Assembly (NCBI RefSeq): GCF_000744115.1
Contig: NZ_JQLG01000004.1
Span: 186,001 to 250,000 of the forward strand
DNA length: 64,000 bases
Origin: Carnobacterium alterfunditum DSM 5972
GTDB taxonomy: Bacteria > Bacillota > Bacilli > Lactobacillales > Carnobacteriaceae
Direction of reading: 5' to 3'
Below are positions 34,179 through 42,299 of the stretch, piece by piece (within the stretch, counting starts at the first letter, position 1; every line of letters begins with the position of its first letter). The notes under the pieces were generated by a model, which was not told where the DNA came from, made no database searches, and saw nothing but the letters and a program-made list of their open reading frames with translations. The position numbers and the translations under genes were made by a program.

Positions 34179-35024
34179 TTAGTGCAGTACGATAACAACT
34201 ATTTCTGGTCGATTATTGATACGAAGTGGGAAAGTCGAATTCCCGATACCACGGCTGACCATCATCCGGTAAGCCGGCATTTCAGGGTCATAATAGACTC
34301 CATTAGTAAATGTTGGCAACTTCCCTTGTCCTGGCGAAAATAAGCCGCCTAAGAACGGTAATCTTACTTGTCCTCCATGAGCATGCCCGCTAAGCGTAAG
34401 GGCAGGTACACGTGTTAGATCCATTAAATACTCTTCGAATAATTCTGGACGGTGTGCCAATAAAATACGCGGCTTTGTCCGCAAAGATTCTTCTATCATC
34501 ACGCCTCTTAAAATAGGCTTTGGTGTTGAACTAAAATCTTCTTTTTCCGACAATCCCATCACAACTATCCCGGCTTCGCCAATCGGCAACCAATCCGCTT
34601 CATCGATCAATACCCTTACACCTACAGAAGTTAATGTTGCTTCCCATTTTTGTAGATGTCCTGAATTCAAATCATGATTGCCAGTCACTGCAAAGGTTGG
34701 AGCAATCTCAACTAGTGAGCGACACAAGAATTCTAATTCTTCTTGCGGAAAATCATCTCGCACATCGATCAAATCACCGGTCAATGCGATCATATCCGGT
34801 TTTTCTTGTGCTACTTTTTCAATCAATTTTTTTACCGATACGCCTTGACGCGGCAAATGCAAATCACTCAATTGAACTATTTTTGCTCCGCTTAAACTTT
34901 TCCCTGTAAACGGGATTTTTATTTCAATTTGTGTTCGTTCTAGTTGGGTGTTTTGTAAATATAAATAAAGAATAATGACACATACAATTGCTACCACAAC
35001 ACCAACTATTGACCATCCTGACAT
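34179..35024 (-). CDS. Membrane-anchored metallophosphoesterase (YkuE/YaeI-like)
   Basis: 281 residues. N-terminal membrane segment (about 5-25), then all metal motifs: VQLSDLHLP, LTGDLID, VTGNHDLN, LLAHRPE, LSGHAHGGQV. The family includes UDP-diacylglucosamine-type and other envelope phosphoesterases (YkuE, YaeI). The substrate is not known. AAGGAGGA precedes the ATG. Confidence 0.9.
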   Translation of the reverse strand: MSGWSIVGVVVAIVCVIILYLYLQNTQLERTQIEIKIPFTGKSLSGAKIVQLSDLHLPRQGVSVKKLIEKVAQEKPDMIALTGDLIDVRDDFPQEELEFLCRSLVEIAPTFAVTGNHDLNSGHLQKWEATLTSVGVRVLIDEADWLPIGEAGIVVMGLSEKEDFSSTPKPILRGVMIEESLRTKPRILLAHRPELFEEYLMDLTRVPALTLSGHAHGGQVRLPFLGGLFSPGQGKLPTFTNGVYYDPEMPAYRMMVSRGIGNSTFPLRINNRPEIVVIVLH

Positions 35025-35154
35025 GCGTATTCCTCCTTGACTATGCTAAACATATTTGTCTTATCTGATTTATTCACTACAATAAGCTTTTCTTATTGTA
35101 TCATAGTTTTTTAAGTAAAGCGGATACAAAAGATGGTTTATTCAAAAATAACAA

Positions 35155-35200
35155 ACAAAAAATCCGGTTCTTTTTTTTAAAGAATCGGATTTTCTATTTT
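35155..35200 (-). terminator. Terminator of the 35199 gene
   Basis: Read leftward: AAAATCCGATTCTTT pairs with AAAGAACCGGATTTTTT. It starts at the stop codon. Confidence 0.82.
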
Positions 35201-35891
35201 AGTTGGTATAAATCATTTTTGTGCTTTCTAATGTATCTGCTTTTACTGATTCAAAGAAATAATTTTCTTTACCGCTTTTGATCTCAAGATCGATAGCTTG
35301 GATCTCCTTCTCTGCATTATGGATCATTAACAATTCTGTCAACCCTTTTGACTGAGTCAAGATTTCATCAACAGTTAACCCTTCTTCAATCGTTAGTTCG
35401 ATCGTAAGAAGACCGCTTACCAAGTCAAAATTATTTTTACTAACGTCCCATCTTCTTGATAGCGTTGATTTTGAAACCGCATTCACATTATAGTAAAAAT
35501 TTGTCATTCTTACCCCTTCACTTGTGGTTTCAACTTTGTGTTCCAATTTATTTTCAGTATTAGACTCTTCAGTTTGTATAGTGTAACCACTGTAAGTTAG
35601 AATGGTCACTTCTTGATCTTTTACTTGTTTTAAAGCATTCGCTTGTTCCATTAACTCTTTTTCTGTTCTGCTAGGATCAGCAATAGCTACAATAGGTTTT
35701 TTATTGTCCATCTGTTCTGATGAAAAGTTAGTTTGATAGGCACTAGTCAATCCATCTATTGCTTTAACGGATAAAGGTTGGAAAAGATAACCAGATAAAA
35801 ATGCGGTCAATCCTAAAAGTACAATTAAACTTAAACGAAGGTGATTTGTGTTCCTTCTTTTTATGTGAGTTTGAACTGTTGGATTTATCAT
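35199..35891 (-). CDS. Membrane-anchored exported protein, unknown
   Basis: About 230 residues from ATG 35891 (MINPTVQTHIKRRN). One membrane segment (about 20-42) is followed by an outside part with a heptad-like acidic region (PSRTEKELMEQANALKQVKD). I recognise no family. It is downstream of the SipW/TasA-like cluster in the same direction, but a terminator at 36153 separates them. It may or may not belong to it. Confidence 0.6.
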   Translation of the reverse strand: MINPTVQTHIKRRNTNHLRLSLIVLLGLTAFLSGYLFQPLSVKAIDGLTSAYQTNFSSEQMDNKKPIVAIADPSRTEKELMEQANALKQVKDQEVTILTYSGYTIQTEESNTENKLEHKVETTSEGVRMTNFYYNVNAVSKSTLSRRWDVSKNNFDLVSGLLTIELTIEEGLTVDEILTQSKGLTELLMIHNAEKEIQAIDLEIKSGKENYFFESVKADTLESTKMIYTN

Positions 35892-36150
35892 AAAAAAACA
35901 CCGCTCCCTATTATTCAATTAAAATTAATTATTATACAGCATATTTATTATCCTTATTGATAATATAACGTTTTGAAAAAAACATTGTATAAAAATTTAT
36001 TTTTGATGTAAGGCCCTTATTTTTATAAGTTAAGTATAAACTATTATTTCATTATATTCTATCTTATACCTATATAATCGGCATAAAGTTTTATTAGTTA
36101 AGGGTTACTTCAAAGAAATTTTTTTCAAACTAGTACCTATAATAAAGCCA

Positions 36151-36187
36151 CAAAAAAAAGCCCGCTATATTTAGCGAGCTTTTTTTG
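36151..36187 (-). terminator. Terminator of the TasA-like operon
   Basis: AAAAAAAGCCCGCTA-TATT-TAGCGAGCTTTTTTT, A/T-runs on both sides, 95 bp after the 36282 stop. Confidence 0.88.
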
Positions 36188-36281
36188 ATTCTTTATATTG
36201 GTTATGGCAGTATTATTGAGGAAAAGGAATTTTTGTTTACTTTGATTTCTGTCTTGATAATAATTACTCGATTTTATTATT

Positions 36282-37703
36282 TTATTGGGTCATTATTACA
36301 TCTCGGTAAATCACTAACCTATTTCCAGTGTTTCCTACAATAATTATTTTAAGCTTTCCTTTTTTATCCTTGTCTGACGATTTTGCAGCTTTACTTGTAT
36401 TGATTAACAAATAATTTTGTTTATCATTTTGATCAGCTTTATGCAGACTCAAGTCAAACAGCGTTGGTTCTGTAACAATCTCAGCGTACAGATTCTTATA
36501 TAACAGATTCGCGTCAGCTAAAGAATCCCCCAGATTATTACCATTCCAATTATCACCTAAGCTTGTATGTTTAAATGTTAGTTTCTTTTGATTTAAAGTA
36601 GTATAAATTGGCAATATTTTAAACTCATTTGAAGTTTTTTCATCCGTATTTAATAAAATTCTTTTTTGAACTAAAGGCAATAAATCACTAGCAAACTTCA
36701 CATACGTATTCGGTCTACTACCATCATAATGAAAGTCTACCTTGTAATAGTTAGGTTGAGTTAATAAATTCTCAGCTTTTTTATTTGATATATCAAAAGA
36801 GAAAGTTAGTTTAATAAATCGTCTATTCTCCATTACCTCTGCCTTTATATTATAACCTTCTGGTTGATCAATACGGAAATTATCGTCTGCTTTCAACTTT
36901 CCTTCTGGCAGTTCAATATAAAGCACATTATCATTTAAATTTCGAACTCCATCGCCTGACTCTAGTTCACTAAAATACATGATATTTTCAAATTGTGCAT
37001 CATTGTATCTTACTTCATTATTCCATTTCCAATTCTTATCATCGGCTGCTGGCCAATAGTTAGGATCTGGTACTTCTTCGGCTTTCAGTTTTAATTCATG
37101 TTTGAAAGAAACTTTATCATAAAACATCGTTTCTTTAGGTTCAGATGAATTAGTTTGTACCAAAAGAAATGTAACTGTAATATCAATATCACGATTTTTT
37201 TTAGGTACGGTATTAGTTTTATATTCGATTGTTACTGGAGCATCTTTTTCCTGATTTCCATCAAAAATCCATTCATTATTCTTGTTGTCTGTTACAAATG
37301 TATAGTTAGCTGAATTTATTTTTGAAGCAGGAATCGATTTGTTATCTGATGCAAAGTCAAAATTCATTATTATTTGGATTTCACTATCATTAACCAAAGT
37401 ATCTGTTCCCTTTTCCGTGACTTGAATCTTATAAGCCAGTTTGCCATCCAATGTTCCTTTATTTTTTAAAACATGAGAAGAAAGTAAAACTGGATCCCCA
37501 CCTAAGTAGGTTAATCCAGTGGTAGTTTCATTTTGTTCAGGAGACAAGTCCAAGTTGCCTAAAGTCAACTTTACTCCTGCATTTAAGCTAGCACTATCAG
37601 TAAAACTTGCAAAAACTTTACTGGAAGGAATTAAGTAGAAAGTCATGAAGAATAGTGCATTGATATATATAAACACTTTTATCATTAACTTTATTTTTTC
37701 CAT
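36282..37703 (-). CDS. SipW-type secreted protein, partner of the TasA-like protein
   Basis: 473 residues. Signal segment (about 8-30) ends SSKVFASFTDSASLNAGVKL, the AxFTDxA cleavage context of SipW substrates. Then comes GNLDLSP, the same motif as in the TasA-like neighbour (GNLDIES). The rest is a long extracellular beta-rich region with Tyr/Trp-rich patches and no domain I recognise. It follows the TasA-like gene by 83 bp with AAGGAGG. The role is probably in the fibre, as an anchor or minor subunit (TapA-like by position, not by sequence). Confidence 0.72.
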   Translation of the reverse strand: MEKIKLMIKVFIYINALFFMTFYLIPSSKVFASFTDSASLNAGVKLTLGNLDLSPEQNETTTGLTYLGGDPVLLSSHVLKNKGTLDGKLAYKIQVTEKGTDTLVNDSEIQIIMNFDFASDNKSIPASKINSANYTFVTDNKNNEWIFDGNQEKDAPVTIEYKTNTVPKKNRDIDITVTFLLVQTNSSEPKETMFYDKVSFKHELKLKAEEVPDPNYWPAADDKNWKWNNEVRYNDAQFENIMYFSELESGDGVRNLNDNVLYIELPEGKLKADDNFRIDQPEGYNIKAEVMENRRFIKLTFSFDISNKKAENLLTQPNYYKVDFHYDGSRPNTYVKFASDLLPLVQKRILLNTDEKTSNEFKILPIYTTLNQKKLTFKHTSLGDNWNGNNLGDSLADANLLYKNLYAEIVTEPTLFDLSLHKADQNDKQNYLLINTSKAAKSSDKDKKGKLKIIIVGNTGNRLVIYRDVIMTQ

Positions 37704-37786
37704 CTACTTATTTCCTCCTTATGTCAGCCATTCCTTAATTTATTAGTTTTTATTATATGATTCGTTATTTTTTAGACTAATTTTGC

Positions 37787-38440
37787 TTATTTATTTACTT
37801 GATTTGCTGTTACCGTAACTGCATTTTTAATAATATCTGTTGTAGCAGTAGCATCCTGAAGTGCGTTAAAAATTAGACTGTCTTTATTAAGCGTCTTACT
37901 ATTTTTTTGATTATTTGTTGCGTCAAAAGAATCTTCTGTATTAACACTGATAGTCATTTTATACTTTACAGATTCATCTTTTTTAATTATGCCATTAGTT
38001 GATAGTCCACTAGCAGCTTCAATTGGTTCAAAATTAACATTAAAAATACTATCAGTATTGCTTGATACAGTATTTTTCACTGTCACATTCTGTTCTAAAC
38101 TGCCGACATTTTTAAATTCAAATATTCTCTCAAATTTATCTCCTGGTTGAACATTTGTAATATTTTTAGCATTTTCAGTTGTAACAGTCATATTATTTGT
38201 CACTGAAGTTGTGCCAGTTAATAAAGCGGAATTAACTTTACCATTTTCTGGAGTATATTTCCATAAGCTATCAACTGATTCAATGTCTAAATTTCCTAAT
38301 TCTAATTTAATATCCGCTTGTTGTGTTGCACTATCTGAGAAATATGCCCGAGTTCCGTATGCTGCCACACTGATGATCAGTAATGCTCCTAGTAGTAATG
38401 GTAATTTTTTTCTTCTGTTGTTAGCTGATGTTTTTTTCAT
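37787..38440 (-). CDS. TasA/CalY (camelysin)-like matrix fibre protein
   Basis: 217 residues. The signal peptide ends VAAYGTRAYFSDSATQ, the SipW-type site of TasA, CalY and camelysin. The mature protein starts with ADIKLELGNLDIES. It then has NVQPGDKFERIFEFKNVGSLEQNVTVKN, the TasA-fold 'pGD...i..kN.Gs' stretch. TasA-family proteins form extracellular fibres in biofilms. It lies between the sipW gene (own terminator) and the 473-residue partner. Its own promoter is probable within the 600-bp gap upstream. Confidence 0.83.
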   Translation of the reverse strand: MKKTSANNRRKKLPLLLGALLIISVAAYGTRAYFSDSATQQADIKLELGNLDIESVDSLWKYTPENGKVNSALLTGTTSVTNNMTVTTENAKNITNVQPGDKFERIFEFKNVGSLEQNVTVKNTVSSNTDSIFNVNFEPIEAASGLSTNGIIKKDESVKYKMTISVNTEDSFDATNNQKNSKTLNKDSLIFNALQDATATTDIIKNAVTVTANQVNK

Positions 38441-39045
38441 TTTATATTCTCCTCCATCGCATTTTATTTACGCATTTTATTTAGTTTTTTGTTTCGGTTT
38501 TAGTAACTATAATCCCGGGATAAAGATAAGTCAAACAGGTTAGTTTTTATACAAAATCATAAATATTCATCTCACAAGATATAACTTTTGTTTAGGATTA
38601 CTTATTTTATTTTTTTATTTGATAATCAAACTAACGGCATTATAATGGGATTTTTAAAATGTTTGTTATAAAACTGTATGAGAGATCATCTGATTTCAAA
38701 CAATAAAACAACATTTGTTTAAACCAAAAAAACATAAATTGAATATTAAATGTATAAAAAAACCGTTTTCATGGATATAGCCAATTAAAATTGTCTATTT
38801 ATTAAAAAAAAGGTGTTATTTGTAATAAATATAAATAACGTTTTTTTTTTTATGATCTTCATTTATTTTAATGGCTGATTTTTTCGCTATAACGCCATTA
38901 AAATGCCTAAAAAAACCAAAAAAAAATAGAAGGTGGATGGTTTTATCCACTTTCTATTCAATGAATCCGCTATATACTGTATAAAAATTCTTTTTAAAAG
39001 TTTTTGAAAATCGAGTGGAAATGCTTTTACTAAACAGTTGTTCAT
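38441..39045. other. Long AT-rich leader/promoter region of the TasA-like gene
   Basis: No gene. A leftward TATAAT lies at 38639-38644, with poor -35, about 200 nt before the start. Long poly-A/T tracts and the sipW terminator at 38926. The unusual length suggests regulation. Confidence 0.45.
38926..38957 (-). terminator. sipW terminator
   Basis: Read leftward: ATAGAAAGTGGAT pairs with ATCCACCTTCTAT, followed by ten or more T residues. Confidence 0.88.
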
Positions 39046-39552
39046 TTAAATATTGCTCTTTTCTTCCTCTTTTGTGCTGGGATTAATATACAGATGAATA
39101 AGATAGATACCCATGAAAGCAACAACTATAGCAAAGGCAATCGGTTTTTGTAAGAAAGTAACGACGTACCCAAAATAAGGGATCAGAATTTTTTGAGTCC
39201 CAATGTAGGTTTCTTCTGTAACAAAACCTTGATCTTGGATGTTATTTGCATCCCCTTTGGTCACTAAGCCTTCAGCCGTTTTATCGTTCACTCTATGTGT
39301 GACGAGTTCTTGATTGTATTGAAACGTGATCACATCTTCTTTTTCAACATCAGCATAAGGTTCCGTTTCAACAATGATAAAATCACCGACCGCTATCTCG
39401 GGTTCCATACTGCCGCTCACAACTGTGTACCCTTTGTATCCGAGTAATCCGCTACTATCAGGTGCGGAAAAGAAACTGATCCCGGCGATGATCACAAAAA
39501 CAGAAACAAGTACTACTGCTAGAGCTGTTCCAATATCTTTCACTATTTTCAT
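39046..39552 (-). CDS. sipW: Signal peptidase I, SipW (ER) type
   Basis: 168 residues from ATG 39552 (GTGAGGA upstream). Membrane segment 9-29, catalytic Ser48 in VVSGSMEP, and His87-type HRV instead of the bacterial Lys. KGDANNIQD follows, and a second membrane segment is near the C-terminus (about 140-158). This Ser-His form is SipW, needed to process TasA-type proteins. Both likely substrates are encoded just downstream. An inverted repeat CTATCTTT/AAAGATAG lies right upstream. Confidence 0.92.
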   Translation of the reverse strand: MKIVKDIGTALAVVLVSVFVIIAGISFFSAPDSSGLLGYKGYTVVSGSMEPEIAVGDFIIVETEPYADVEKEDVITFQYNQELVTHRVNDKTAEGLVTKGDANNIQDQGFVTEETYIGTQKILIPYFGYVVTFLQKPIAFAIVVAFMGIYLIHLYINPSTKEEEKSNI

Positions 39553-39566
39553 TTTTAATTTCCTCA

Positions 39567-39593
39567 CTATCTTTCTATTTGCTTTAAAGATAG
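39567..39593. promoter_or_regulatory. Inverted repeat upstream of sipW
   Basis: CTATCTTT-11 bp-AAAGATAG, 14 bp before the chosen sipW start. It could be an operator or an mRNA hairpin. Confidence 0.4.
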
Positions 39594-39646
39594 CATATCA
39601 CTCAAATGAAATCTATCTTATTTCGATTTCCATTAAACAAAAATCA

Positions 39647-40774
39647 CTACTTATTTATAAATTTTTCTTTTGATAAATATCCATTATACTCACTTTGCAA
39701 TTGGTTCTTAGATAAATTAGGTCGAACAACATAAAGCGATTGAGAAGTAAGGAAAGCATTTGTTAACCCTACACCGATGCTTTCATAGATCGACTTATCC
39801 TGCAAGTAGCTATGAACTAAGCCAGCACAAAAAGCTTCATTCATGCCCCAATTGTACTGATCATTTTGTTCACTTGAATAATTGAAAATAGAAATCTCAC
39901 CTTTTTGATTTCCAAATGCTATTTTAGTACTGCCTTTAGAAATAAAGACATTTTCTGGTCCTTTATCTAACCATTTTTTGACAGCCTCTTTTAAATCTTC
40001 GTCCGTATCGATAGTCATATCAAAATGAGCTTCTGTTTCATTGTGTTTTGTGATCAACACTTTTATTCCACCTAAGAAACAAGGGATATTTGTTAGTTTT
40101 TGAACCGAAACGGTCAGTAAAGTAACCGGTATATTGTGTTTGATAGCAAAACCATTTAAAAATTCAATCGTTTCTTTAGGACAATTTAAGTCGATGATGA
40201 TGTATTTTGCTCGCTTTAATACAGAAAGGTGCTTATTGATCCACTCAACCGTCATTTTATCAAAAATATCCATTTCTGCTAAACCTAAAACCATTTTGCC
40301 AGTAGAATCGATCACTTCCATGAATGTACCAGTAGCACAGCCTTCTATTTTATCGACAGCTTTGATATTCATAAAATGTTCCGAATGTTTTTCAATGATC
40401 GTCGATTCAACATCATTGCCGACTACCGAAAAAAACTTCACTTTTTCTTCTAGTCGTCCTAAGTTTTCAGCTACATTACGTGCTACGCCACCAGCATTTT
40501 TACGAGAATGCACATTGTTTGACGTTCCTTGGATCAATGTATCTTTTATCAAATAGCGGCGATCAACGTTCGCTCCGCCAATACAGATGATTGGTTCTTC
40601 TTCAGTTAACACATAAGCTTTTCCCAACAAATAATCTTTTTTGACAAGTCCTGAAATAAGATTCGCTGTAGCTGAACGGGATAATCCAATATCATCCGCC
40701 AATTCTTGTTGTGCTATAAAAGGATTTTCACGAATGATTTCTAGAATCTTCTTTTCTTTTTCGTTAAGGCTCAT
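39647..40774 (-). CDS. HTH-containing PfkB sugar kinase (YeiI-like)
   Basis: 375 residues. N-terminal winged helix (KEKKILEIIRENPFIAQQELADDIGLS, about 5-55), then a ribokinase-fold domain with ICIGGANVDRRYLI, NAGGVARNVAENL and the C-terminal NWGMNEAFCAGLVHS (catalytic region; classic G-A-G-D is altered to NEAF). This matches E. coli YeiI-type fused regulators. The changed GAGD (Asp replaced by Glu/Phe region) may lower kinase activity. Neighbour of the MurE-like gene, 85 bp after it. Confidence 0.8.
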   Translation of the reverse strand: MSLNEKEKKILEIIRENPFIAQQELADDIGLSRSATANLISGLVKKDYLLGKAYVLTEEEPIICIGGANVDRRYLIKDTLIQGTSNNVHSRKNAGGVARNVAENLGRLEEKVKFFSVVGNDVESTIIEKHSEHFMNIKAVDKIEGCATGTFMEVIDSTGKMVLGLAEMDIFDKMTVEWINKHLSVLKRAKYIIIDLNCPKETIEFLNGFAIKHNIPVTLLTVSVQKLTNIPCFLGGIKVLITKHNETEAHFDMTIDTDEDLKEAVKKWLDKGPENVFISKGSTKIAFGNQKGEISIFNYSSEQNDQYNWGMNEAFCAGLVHSYLQDKSIYESIGVGLTNAFLTSQSLYVVRPNLSKNQLQSEYNGYLSKEKFINK

Positions 40775-40859
40775 CGTCAGTTCCCTCTTCCCTGTTGTAA
40801 CTTATTAATCAACTCGTTCTCATTACCGATCACCGTTTTGAAGTTGAGAGCTGATTTCC

Positions 40860-42299
40860 TTATTCTTGCAAATAGTTTACTGTTTCTTGATCTGTTTTGG
40901 TCTTTAAAGCATAGTTTTCTTTGTACTGCTCATGCCCTTTACCTAGTAACAATACCCAGTCACCTGCTTGAGCTCCTCTGATCACTTTTTGAATAGCTAG
41001 TGTTCGATCCATAATAATACTCGTTTTATCCTCTACATGACACTCTTTTTGGATAGATACGTAATCAGCGTATAAGTTGTCGATCGTCGAACCAAAAAGT
41101 TCGGTTACCGTTAAAATAGCATGTGTGCTTAACTGACAAACATTTTCCAGCATCGCTTTTCGCTTTGATTCATCACGGTTTCCGGCAAATCCGAATACGG
41201 TTATGATGCGTTTTGCGCCCTTGCTGATAGCTGTATTGATTGAAGTAGCTAAAGCATCCGGCGTATGAGCGTAATCAACGACGACCGTTACTTTGTTGGC
41301 TAAGTGGAAAATTTCAAATCGTCCTACGATGCCTGAAAACTGAGCCATATAAGGCGTTACCTGTTCATACGGTACTCCTAGTTCGTGAGCGACACAACTA
41401 GCCATCGTTAAGTTTTCCAAATTATGCACTCCGGGCAAGGGTGACCACAAATCATATTCATTATTTTTATACCTTACTGAAACATTATCCAGCTCTTTAG
41501 CTAGAATTTGAACCTGATTAGTTGGTTCTTCGCCAACGGTCACGACCATCTTTCCTTCCGCAGTCAAACGTTCGGTCAGCTTTTTGCCCCAGCTGTCATC
41601 ATAATTGATTATAGCTGTACCATCCGGCTTAAGTTTTTCGAACAATAAGGCTTTGCATTCAAAGTATTCTTCCATTGTATCGTGGTAATCTAAATGATCA
41701 TGTTGTAAATTATTAAATAAAGCATAATCAAACTGGATCCCCTCCAAACGGTCTTGTTCTAAACCTTGAGAAGATACTTCCATAACTACAACTTGATCGT
41801 TCGATTCCCTTAGCAATTGATTGATCATTTTTGCATTTGGGGTCGTATTGACAGATTGGATCCTTTTCCCATTGATTTCATTGTAAATGGTCCCAATCGA
41901 AGAAACACTGTAACCTTGTTTTTCTAAGAGCTGTTTAACTAAAAAACTAATCGTTGTTTTGCCATTAGTCCCCGTGACGCCGATCATAATTTTATCTTTT
42001 GATGGATCTTTATAAAATTCCTTTGCCACTTGACCTAGTGTCTTTCGAGCATTTTTTACTTTCAAATATGGAACTGTTAAATCTATGCGATCATTTTCCC
42101 CAATAATAAGGATCGCGCCATTAACAATGGCTTGCTGGATATAGATGTGCCCATCTGCCATATGTCCTTTGATTGCTATAAAGATATAGCCAGGACCGAC
42201 TTCATTTGAATTATCGGTGATCCCTTTTACATTAAGTGATTGATCCAAGGTTTCACTGTATTCCAAATGACCCATTGTTAGTATATCTGTTATTTTCAT
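40860..42299 (-). CDS. MurE-like Mur ligase, atypical specificity
   Basis: 479 residues. ATP loop GVTGTNGKTT (107-116), LQHDHLDYH, HNLENLTMA, GRFEIF, YAHTPDAL and FGFAGNRDESKR (all MurE). But the substrate-specifying DNP(R/A) motif, which follows 'VTSD', is replaced by TVTELFGSTIDN (397-408), and the usual FDDRE near the C-terminus is TKTDQET. It is likely a second MurE homologue with a different amino-acid or other substrate, rather than the housekeeping MurE. AAAAGGAG precedes the ATG. Confidence 0.82.
   Translation of the reverse strand: MKITDILTMGHLEYSETLDQSLNVKGITDNSNEVGPGYIFIAIKGHMADGHIYIQQAIVNGAILIIGENDRIDLTVPYLKVKNARKTLGQVAKEFYKDPSKDKIMIGVTGTNGKTTISFLVKQLLEKQGYSVSSIGTIYNEINGKRIQSVNTTPNAKMINQLLRESNDQVVVMEVSSQGLEQDRLEGIQFDYALFNNLQHDHLDYHDTMEEYFECKALLFEKLKPDGTAIINYDDSWGKKLTERLTAEGKMVVTVGEEPTNQVQILAKELDNVSVRYKNNEYDLWSPLPGVHNLENLTMASCVAHELGVPYEQVTPYMAQFSGIVGRFEIFHLANKVTVVVDYAHTPDALATSINTAISKGAKRIITVFGFAGNRDESKRKAMLENVCQLSTHAILTVTELFGSTIDNLYADYVSIQKECHVEDKTSIIMDRTLAIQKVIRGAQAGDWVLLLGKGHEQYKENYALKTKTDQETVNYLQE

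Follow-up and report, generated by a model that had tools for sequence, protein, structure and literature searches.

A probable SipW/TasA-type fiber module in Carnobacterium alterfunditum, with a TasA-type domain in its candidate first subunit

We analyzed a group of minus-strand genes in a 64,000-nucleotide stretch of the Carnobacterium alterfunditum DSM 5972 genome (2.6 Mb; contig NZ_JQLG01000004.1, positions 186,001 to 250,000), referred to as the window herein. The genes encode a signal peptidase, SipW, and two probably secreted proteins that we predict to be its substrates. A sequence-only reading had proposed a SipW/TasA-type module in a genome resembling that of a lactic acid bacterium; the source is a Carnobacterium, within the Lactobacillales, and family models, profile searches, conserved residues, synteny, and joint loss of the genes support such a module. 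We consider it likely that the genes specify a donor-strand fiber system of the TasA type, in which a protein of 217 amino acids (aa) would form the shaft and a 473-aa protein would be the first subunit. Module membership, synteny, the residue pattern, and the separate transcription signals were obtained by computation, using 18 Carnobacteriaceae genomes (the family set) and 395 Lactobacillales genomes (the order set). Genomes are numbered with G and loci with L, and f2, f4, and f6 denote other Lactobacillales families. The genes are as follows.

39046-39552, minus strand: sipW, endoplasmic reticulum (ER)-type (Ser-His) signal peptidase I, 168 aa from an ATG or 173 aa from a GTG at 39567
37787-38440, minus strand: predicted TasA/camelysin-type fiber subunit, 217 aa, with a SipW-type signal peptide (by PF12389, profile, and residues)
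36282-37703, minus strand: 473-aa protein with a SipW-type signal peptide, a predicted N-terminal TasA-type domain (about 33-186), and a beta-rich C-terminal part
35199-35891, minus strand: probable fourth module protein, 230 aa (by co-occurrence with sipW)

The SipW protein passes TIGR02228, the NCBIfam model for ER-type and archaeal signal peptidases, with 103.4 bits (cut-off 51.85) and stays under the Bacillus SipW equivalog model NF046067 (84.4 bits, cut-off 190). An alignment of 11 sequences, that of the window included, shows no variation at S48, H86, D101, and D107, in agreement with the earlier description of an ER-type enzyme with Ser48 and a His. Genome-wide, the only match to the SipW protein was the protein itself, and three further proteins exceed the cut-off of TIGR02227, the model for ordinary signal peptidase I. 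Given these three enzymes, SipW is likely dedicated to substrates of its own. By analogy with TasA, we placed the cleavage sites at TRA^YFSDS in the 217-aa protein (predicted mature start Y33) and VFA^SFTDS in the 473-aa protein, so that both have Phe at P2′; the claim that two signal peptides end at a SipW site thus stands. As described in part of PMC10269814, none of 143 verified Escherichia coli LepB substrates has an aromatic residue at the second mature position, and residues near the TasA site impede LepB. The model for SipW-dependent signal peptides, TIGR04088, matches six of ten TasA-like family members at E ≤ 1. When the genome was searched with it for further substrates, it returned only the 217-aa protein and an internal ATP-binding cassette (ABC)-transporter-like stretch, both below the cut-off, and we claim none.

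The first of the two substrates had been said to look like TasA or CalY, and family models agree. With 27.3 bits, the 217-aa protein exceeds the cut-off of Pfam PF12389 (22.5), a model matched at E ≤ 0.01 by nine of the ten members of the TasA-like alignment, window included. In the PDB, a profile of these ten members matched TasA of Bacillus subtilis (8aur, E 1.8e-5; 5of1, E 1.9e-5) as well as archaeal AbpX (9sj2, E 6.4e-4; 9rhp, E 8.2e-4). Against the NCBIfam TasA equivalog NF046066, the 217-aa protein reaches 20 bits (cut-off 450). Judged by these models, it falls within the wide camelysin/TasA superfamily but outside what NCBI counts as a TasA orthologue. Searching named genomes by peptide pattern turned up no relatives when only the 217-aa protein was used, but did so with a SipW alignment. 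An AlphaFold2 model made from five sequences is a beta-sandwich with a predicted local distance difference test (pLDDT) score of 64 and a predicted template modeling (pTM) score of 0.69.

In the TasA fiber, the residues most conserved among TasA-like proteins meet at the subunit interface in a "proline box" made up of F29 of subunit n, Q232 of subunit n+1, and F200 and P62 of subunit n+2, as set out in part of PMC10151520. In alignments with two Bacillus TasA-type sequences from tapA-sipW-tasA-like loci and seven Bacillales members, F34, P99, and Q214 of the 217-aa protein fall on F29, P62, and Q232; the comparison concerns these three positions, as the F200 region aligns too poorly for placement. 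We then counted box residues in 16 of the 23 TasA-like sequences scoring above 35 bits, omitting that of L096 (start unread; Pro and Gln present) and six f2 copies from L039 and L100. The Phe is found in 16/16, a count that here and below comes partly by selection since mature starts were marked by hand, the Pro in 15/16, and the Gln in 16/16. Of all 23 sequences, 18 retain the Pro and 21 the Gln; the start was read for 21, and each of these has the Phe. L039 and L100 are long SipW loci, each with two sipW genes alongside several copies of the TasA-like gene.

Searches with the 473-aa sequence by itself yielded no credible relative and no NCBIfam family at E ≤ 1, and the profile of its family matched nothing in the PDB at E ≤ 1. 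The structural model of the 473-aa protein has block means of 63 to 91 for mature residues 11-180 and falls under 50 from about residue 307. When this model was submitted to Foldseek, the TasA fiber (8aur_A) ranked first (E 5.5e-4, probability 1.00), and a comparison by VIA gave Z 8.0 with a root mean square deviation of 3.6 over 144 aligned residues (model range 7-154). The sequence-only reading had suggested comparing both predicted folds with those of TasA and TapA. For TasA, the outcome was mixed: the N-terminal domain of the 473-aa protein retrieved the fiber, and the lower-confidence model of the 217-aa protein, taken up below, did not do so among the matches listed. We also aligned a TasA-like profile (16 rows and, in addition, two TasA sequences from Bacillus) with a profile of the large-protein N-terminal domain (16 rows) by hhalign, which gave a probability of 97.9% and E 4.6e-13 over 132 columns.

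The large-protein set was drawn from 17 candidates, 13 found by profile and four by their position after a TasA-like gene; removal of the C-terminal piece of the G007 gene and of G033 and addition of G310 left 16 sequences, among which those of L096, L097, and L098 were chosen by position. All 16 have the Phe and an Asn-x-Gly segment, and 15 have the Gln, the exception being the insertion-broken gene of G007. None has the box Pro. From sequence and model, then, the 473-aa protein begins with a TasA-type domain that keeps the Phe and the Gln without the box Pro, a domain that the sequence-only reading overlooked. In two f2 genomes, the alignment of the large proteins with the family profile covers just 41 columns. 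No TapA-type NCBIfam model is among the matches of eight members of the 473-aa family, and DUF4047 is absent from the same number of scanned members (Pfam, E ≤ 0.1). The window's 473-aa protein has no acidic Ser/Glu-rich C-terminal tail of the kind (about 100 residues) seen in four compared congeners (36190-36282).

To follow the module across genomes, we searched both sets. In the family set, sipW, the TasA-like gene, and the large gene occur together in nine of 18 genomes, eight of which are rows of the large-protein profile; such an association is more than chance would give. At E ≤ 0.001, 26 of the 395 order genomes match the TasA-like profile, and for 17 of these E is < 1e-25. Ten of the 26 had contributed rows to that profile, leaving as independent matches 16 among the other 385 genomes, seven of them strong. 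The large-protein profile matches 15 order genomes (eight of them profile rows), all within the 26, and in all 15 the large gene lies directly downstream of the TasA-like gene. Other SipW-like loci (L036, L037, and L064, in Carnobacteriaceae and Vagococcus allomyrinae) encode a SipW with a longer N-terminus and several secreted proteins of a different type.

Beyond the fiber genes lies the gene of the 230-aa protein, which has an N-terminal hydrophobic segment at about residues 18-40 and no relative worth naming in the PDB, Pfam, or NCBIfam (best RNase_H, E 0.028, below cut-off). The gene is intact in nine of the 18 family genomes, all with a module-type sipW; these nine are the rows of the profile used, and its absence from the remainder is the telling part. 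Elsewhere in the family set we found only a remnant in G012. There, a single in-frame open reading frame (L035 6722-7144) opens with the start of sipW and closes with a stretch resembling the 230-aa protein's tail, a deletion scar indicating that the fiber segment between the two genes was taken out. In f2, a protein adjoining sipW resembles the fourth family (hhalign 83.5%, E 8.2e-6), and a metagenome-assembled Lactobacillales genome (L043) has a fourth-like gene immediately 5′ of sipW. Since the gene occurs only with a module-type sipW, was removed with the module in G012, and is resembled by genes adjoining sipW elsewhere in the Lactobacillales, the 230-aa membrane-anchored protein probably belongs to the module, which would then continue to 35199; the sequence-only reading probably missed this fourth gene.

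The locus is rearranged in several genomes. In G001, both fiber genes have given way to a Mutator-type transposase gene (L027 10561-11739), with sipW and the fourth gene kept. G007 has the TasA-like gene, and its large gene is interrupted by one for an integrase-like protein (rve 32.3 bits, slightly under the cut-off); in G005 a DDE transposase gene lies between sipW and the fiber genes. G014 and G016 represent the empty site, with the kinase described below, a small gene on the opposite strand, and the metallophosphoesterase gene.

We compared the proteins of the locus with those of four congeners that have fiber genes. Identity to the window is 84-91% for the phosphoesterase, 77-82% for the kinase, 75-83% for SipW, and 54-67% for the fourth protein, and falls to 39-44% for the TasA-like protein and 25-27% for the large protein. 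The large protein is closer to that of another genus (G007, 40-41%) than to these congeners. In approximately unbiased (AU) tree tests of congener unity, the TasA-like protein gave p 0.37, the N-terminal half of the large protein 0.106, and the C-terminal half 0.032, the only one rejected. The trees suggest replacement of the fiber genes only weakly, and exchange and strong diversification are both possible. The G+C content of the large fiber gene is 0.31, compared with 0.37 for the window, which together with its divergence points to a possible exchange of alleles.

The transcription signals and the immediate neighbor of the module are listed below.

38924-38959, minus strand: putative intrinsic terminator 3′ of sipW, a hairpin followed by a T-run
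38618-38630, strand unassigned: palindrome TTTGATNATCAAA, candidate operator in the fiber-gene leader, by conservation in loci of the genus
38506-38534, minus strand: predicted fiber-gene promoter TTGACT-17-TATAGT, by consensus scan and aligned leaders
36150-36190, strand unassigned: predicted two-way terminator separating the 473-aa and 230-aa genes
39647-40774, minus strand: PfkB-type kinase with winged helix, upstream of sipW

On the minus strand, the order is therefore the PfkB kinase, sipW, its terminator, the leader, the 217-aa gene, the 473-aa gene, the two-way terminator, the 230-aa gene, and a metallophosphoesterase. A terminator of its own for sipW and an upstream region of about 600 bp for the fiber genes had both been noted from the letters, and the analysis agrees. 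The leader between sipW and the 217-aa gene measures 605 bp. The terminator of sipW, which looks real by sequence, is a 36-nt hairpin (-14.3 kcal/mol) before a T-run; an equivalent hairpin lies 3′ of sipW in nine of ten loci, a count made without a shuffled control, with different sequences in other genera and none found in G001. A general terminator scan found four compared with 2.3 in shuffles. The promoter scored 10/12 in a consensus scan that as a whole gave 29 hits versus 28.5 in shuffles; both hexamers and their spacing are kept in all four aligned leaders of the genus. Upstream of it, the palindrome TTTGATNATCAAA is exact in four of the five Carnobacterium-genus loci with a TasA-like gene and has one mismatch in G002, and its extended form GTTTGATNATCAAA occurs twice genome-wide (backwards control 0). 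By this conservation, it is a candidate operator for some regulator. The two-way terminator has the stem CGCTA...TAGCG with A and T runs on either side, and the plus-strand scan found it at 36163-36176. No RNA element in 35000-41000 matched Rfam at gathering score.

The split layout of sipW, terminator, leader, and fiber genes recurs across Carnobacteriaceae, and sipW lies upstream as in the window in L093 (f4) and L095 (f6). Other loci have operon-like runs: TasA-like gene, large gene, sipW, fourth-like gene, and second sipW in L097-L099 (f2); TasA-like gene, large gene, fourth-like gene, and sipW in L038 (f2); and TasA-like gene, large gene, and sipW in L096 (f4). The sequence-only reading had set the layout against a single operon in Bacillus. 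This is right for the tapA-sipW-tasA genes of B. subtilis and does not extend to B. cereus, where, as described in part of PMC13082335, transcription of capP is separate from that of sipW-tasA and calY. Because B. cereus also has separate units, a split arrangement occurs in other bacteria too. Carnobacteriaceae loci with the module have the PfkB winged-helix kinase 5′ of sipW, as do L093 and L095 from two other families. As the kinase remains where the module was lost, it may be just a conserved neighbor.

These observations fit the following mechanism. SipW would take the signal peptides off the 217-aa and 473-aa proteins, its specificity suiting the Phe at P2′ that ordinary signal peptidases would handle poorly. 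In the 217-aa protein, the cut would expose a mature N-terminus with the F34 Phe at its start, which would become the donor strand. As the repeating subunit, the 217-aa protein would fill the groove of the next subunit with this strand, locked by the Phe, Pro, and Gln. The 473-aa protein would be a fused subunit that donates a strand and supplies the Gln, lacks the Pro, and has an extra C-terminal part. In the published TasA geometry (PMC10151520), the Pro would be needed only for docking as the third or a later subunit, and the Phe and Gln for fiber start. Given that geometry, the combination of Phe and Gln without Pro makes the 473-aa domain the expected design of a first subunit. By analogy with B. 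subtilis, where TapA is described as starting the fiber by lending its N-terminal strand (parts of PMC9674648 and PMC10151520), we infer that the 473-aa protein is a TapA-like first subunit that would nucleate each fiber. Its C-terminal part may anchor it or bind targets, and the 230-aa protein would probably help at the membrane, in docking or as a partner of SipW. The resulting fibers could serve in biofilm formation or adhesion.

Several observations weigh against this proposal. The best match in the genome to TIGR04088 is the 217-aa protein, but at 16.2 bits it lies below the cut-off of 19. A class-wide search with PF12389 left the Pisciglobus genome G009 unmatched at E ≤ 0.001 despite its TasA-like gene, and TasA was not among the listed structural matches of the low-confidence 217-aa model. 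For the 473-aa protein, the C-terminal part of the model is of low confidence, and VIA ranks ten other entries above TasA (Z 8.1-9.3), so the fold match by itself would not settle a TasA-type domain. Some large proteins, that of the window included (GGDP), have a Pro one or two residues past the box position. Conversely, the box Pro is missing from five of the 23 TasA-like sequences, including four from two f2 genomes with multiple copies; an absent Pro alone is therefore no proof of a first subunit. Finally, G007 has no fourth gene despite its TasA-like gene, and G340 has both fiber genes with no sipW within the 14 kb examined.

The chief rival is that the two SipW substrates co-polymerize along the whole fiber as major and minor subunits, the C-terminal part of the 473-aa protein decorating the shaft with no dedicated starter. 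We regard this as possible, if doubtful. The donor-strand Phe and the Gln occur in both proteins, as does the Asn-x-Gly segment, and B. cereus TasA and CalY are described as making heterofilaments (in part of PMC13082335). In addition, the multi-copy f2 TasA-like copies of L039 and L100 split the box among themselves, as partners in a mixed fiber might, four having the Gln without the Pro and two having the Pro with Asn replacing the Gln. Against this, the Pro by which a third subunit docks at the growing end is found at its position in none of the 16 large proteins as against 15 of the 16 curated TasA-like ones.

An unlikely alternative places the 473-aa protein at the other end, as an outermost tip adhesin with a TasA-type docking domain and a variable binding head. 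The large protein changes fastest of the six genes compared (25-27% as against 75-83% for SipW), which is typical of exposed heads, and it has no LPxTG sorting motif. The growing end, which accepts the next subunit, would nevertheless require the docking Pro that the 473-aa protein does not have, and the donor strand that it keeps would be superfluous in a last subunit.

We think it improbable that SipW and both substrates make up a different kind of secreted assembly, unrelated to TasA and similar to it just in the signal peptide and first strand. An earlier profile comparison with fewer rows did align just 33 N-terminal columns, and Foldseek returned generic beta-sandwiches for the 217-aa model. 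With more rows, however, the match spans the 132 columns given above, the PDB profile match of the TasA-like family falls on the PGD segment outside the N-terminus, and a Gln near the C-terminal end is kept in all 16 sequences. Lastly, PF12389 carries the name Peptidase_M73, camelysin metallo-endopeptidase, but the 217-aa protein has no His and no Cys, hence no usual zinc site, and we reject a camelysin-type protease activity as very improbable.

Taken together, a donor-strand fiber system with a 217-aa shaft and a 473-aa first subunit remains the reading that we favor. More tentatively, and with somewhat less than an even chance of being right, we suggest that Carnobacteriaceae and several other Lactobacillales families make TasA-type fibers with a dedicated first subunit that consists of a TasA-type domain minus the docking Pro plus a large, fast-changing part and that replaces the unrelated TapA and CapP. 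Such a starter would be one-way, readable from one residue, and the fiber genes would be exchanged or diversifying as the signal peptidase and flanks stay. The fiber mechanism was worked out for Bacillus TasA, and a module recurring in Carnobacterium, Desemzia, Pisciglobus, and other Lactobacillales would make the system wider. It would also offer a natural variant in which the starter is apparently built from the fiber subunit itself, a clean test of how donor-strand fibers start in Gram-positive bacteria. Among the titles and abstract openings listed in searches of the open literature, none dealt with TasA-type fibers in Carnobacterium or Lactobacillales; subscription journals lie mostly outside this search, which makes the absence weak evidence. 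TasA does not occur in the main text of PMC3017865, and the portion of a review bearing on it (PMC5817068) treats TasA only under B. subtilis.

Compared with known systems, the module resembles B. subtilis tapA-sipW-tasA in its ER-type SipW, signal peptides with Phe at P2′, a TasA-type subunit with equivalents of F29, P62, and Q232, and a second SipW substrate. It differs in that the second substrate has 473 aa with its own TasA-type domain and no NCBIfam match, in that sipW forms a separate unit before the fiber genes, in a probable fourth membrane protein, and in a TasA-like protein with about 40% identity even among congeners. The B. cereus sipW-tasA, capP (bc1280), and calY genes likewise provide two TasA-type proteins and a SipW from more than one transcription unit, and a chaperone-like partner is described as required for filaments there (part of PMC13082335). 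CapP has DUF4047 and tandem repeats, whereas no DUF4047 was found in the 473-aa family members scanned here, and the second TasA-type domain is here fused to a large extra part.

Similarly, the Clostridium perfringens sipW-bsaABCRSD locus encodes a SipW-dependent secreted protein, with polymers, pellicles, and accessory secreted proteins reported in part of PMC7395162. The BsaA model TIGR04090 matches one of ten TasA-like members (E 0.0044) and not the window protein (E ≤ 1), and, unlike in C. perfringens, there is no two-component gene among the six locus proteins scanned. A further likeness is to the archaeal bundling pili, which are called TasA-like in part of PMC9674648 and whose AbpX is matched by our TasA-like family profile, a weak likeness in sequence to an archaeal protein.

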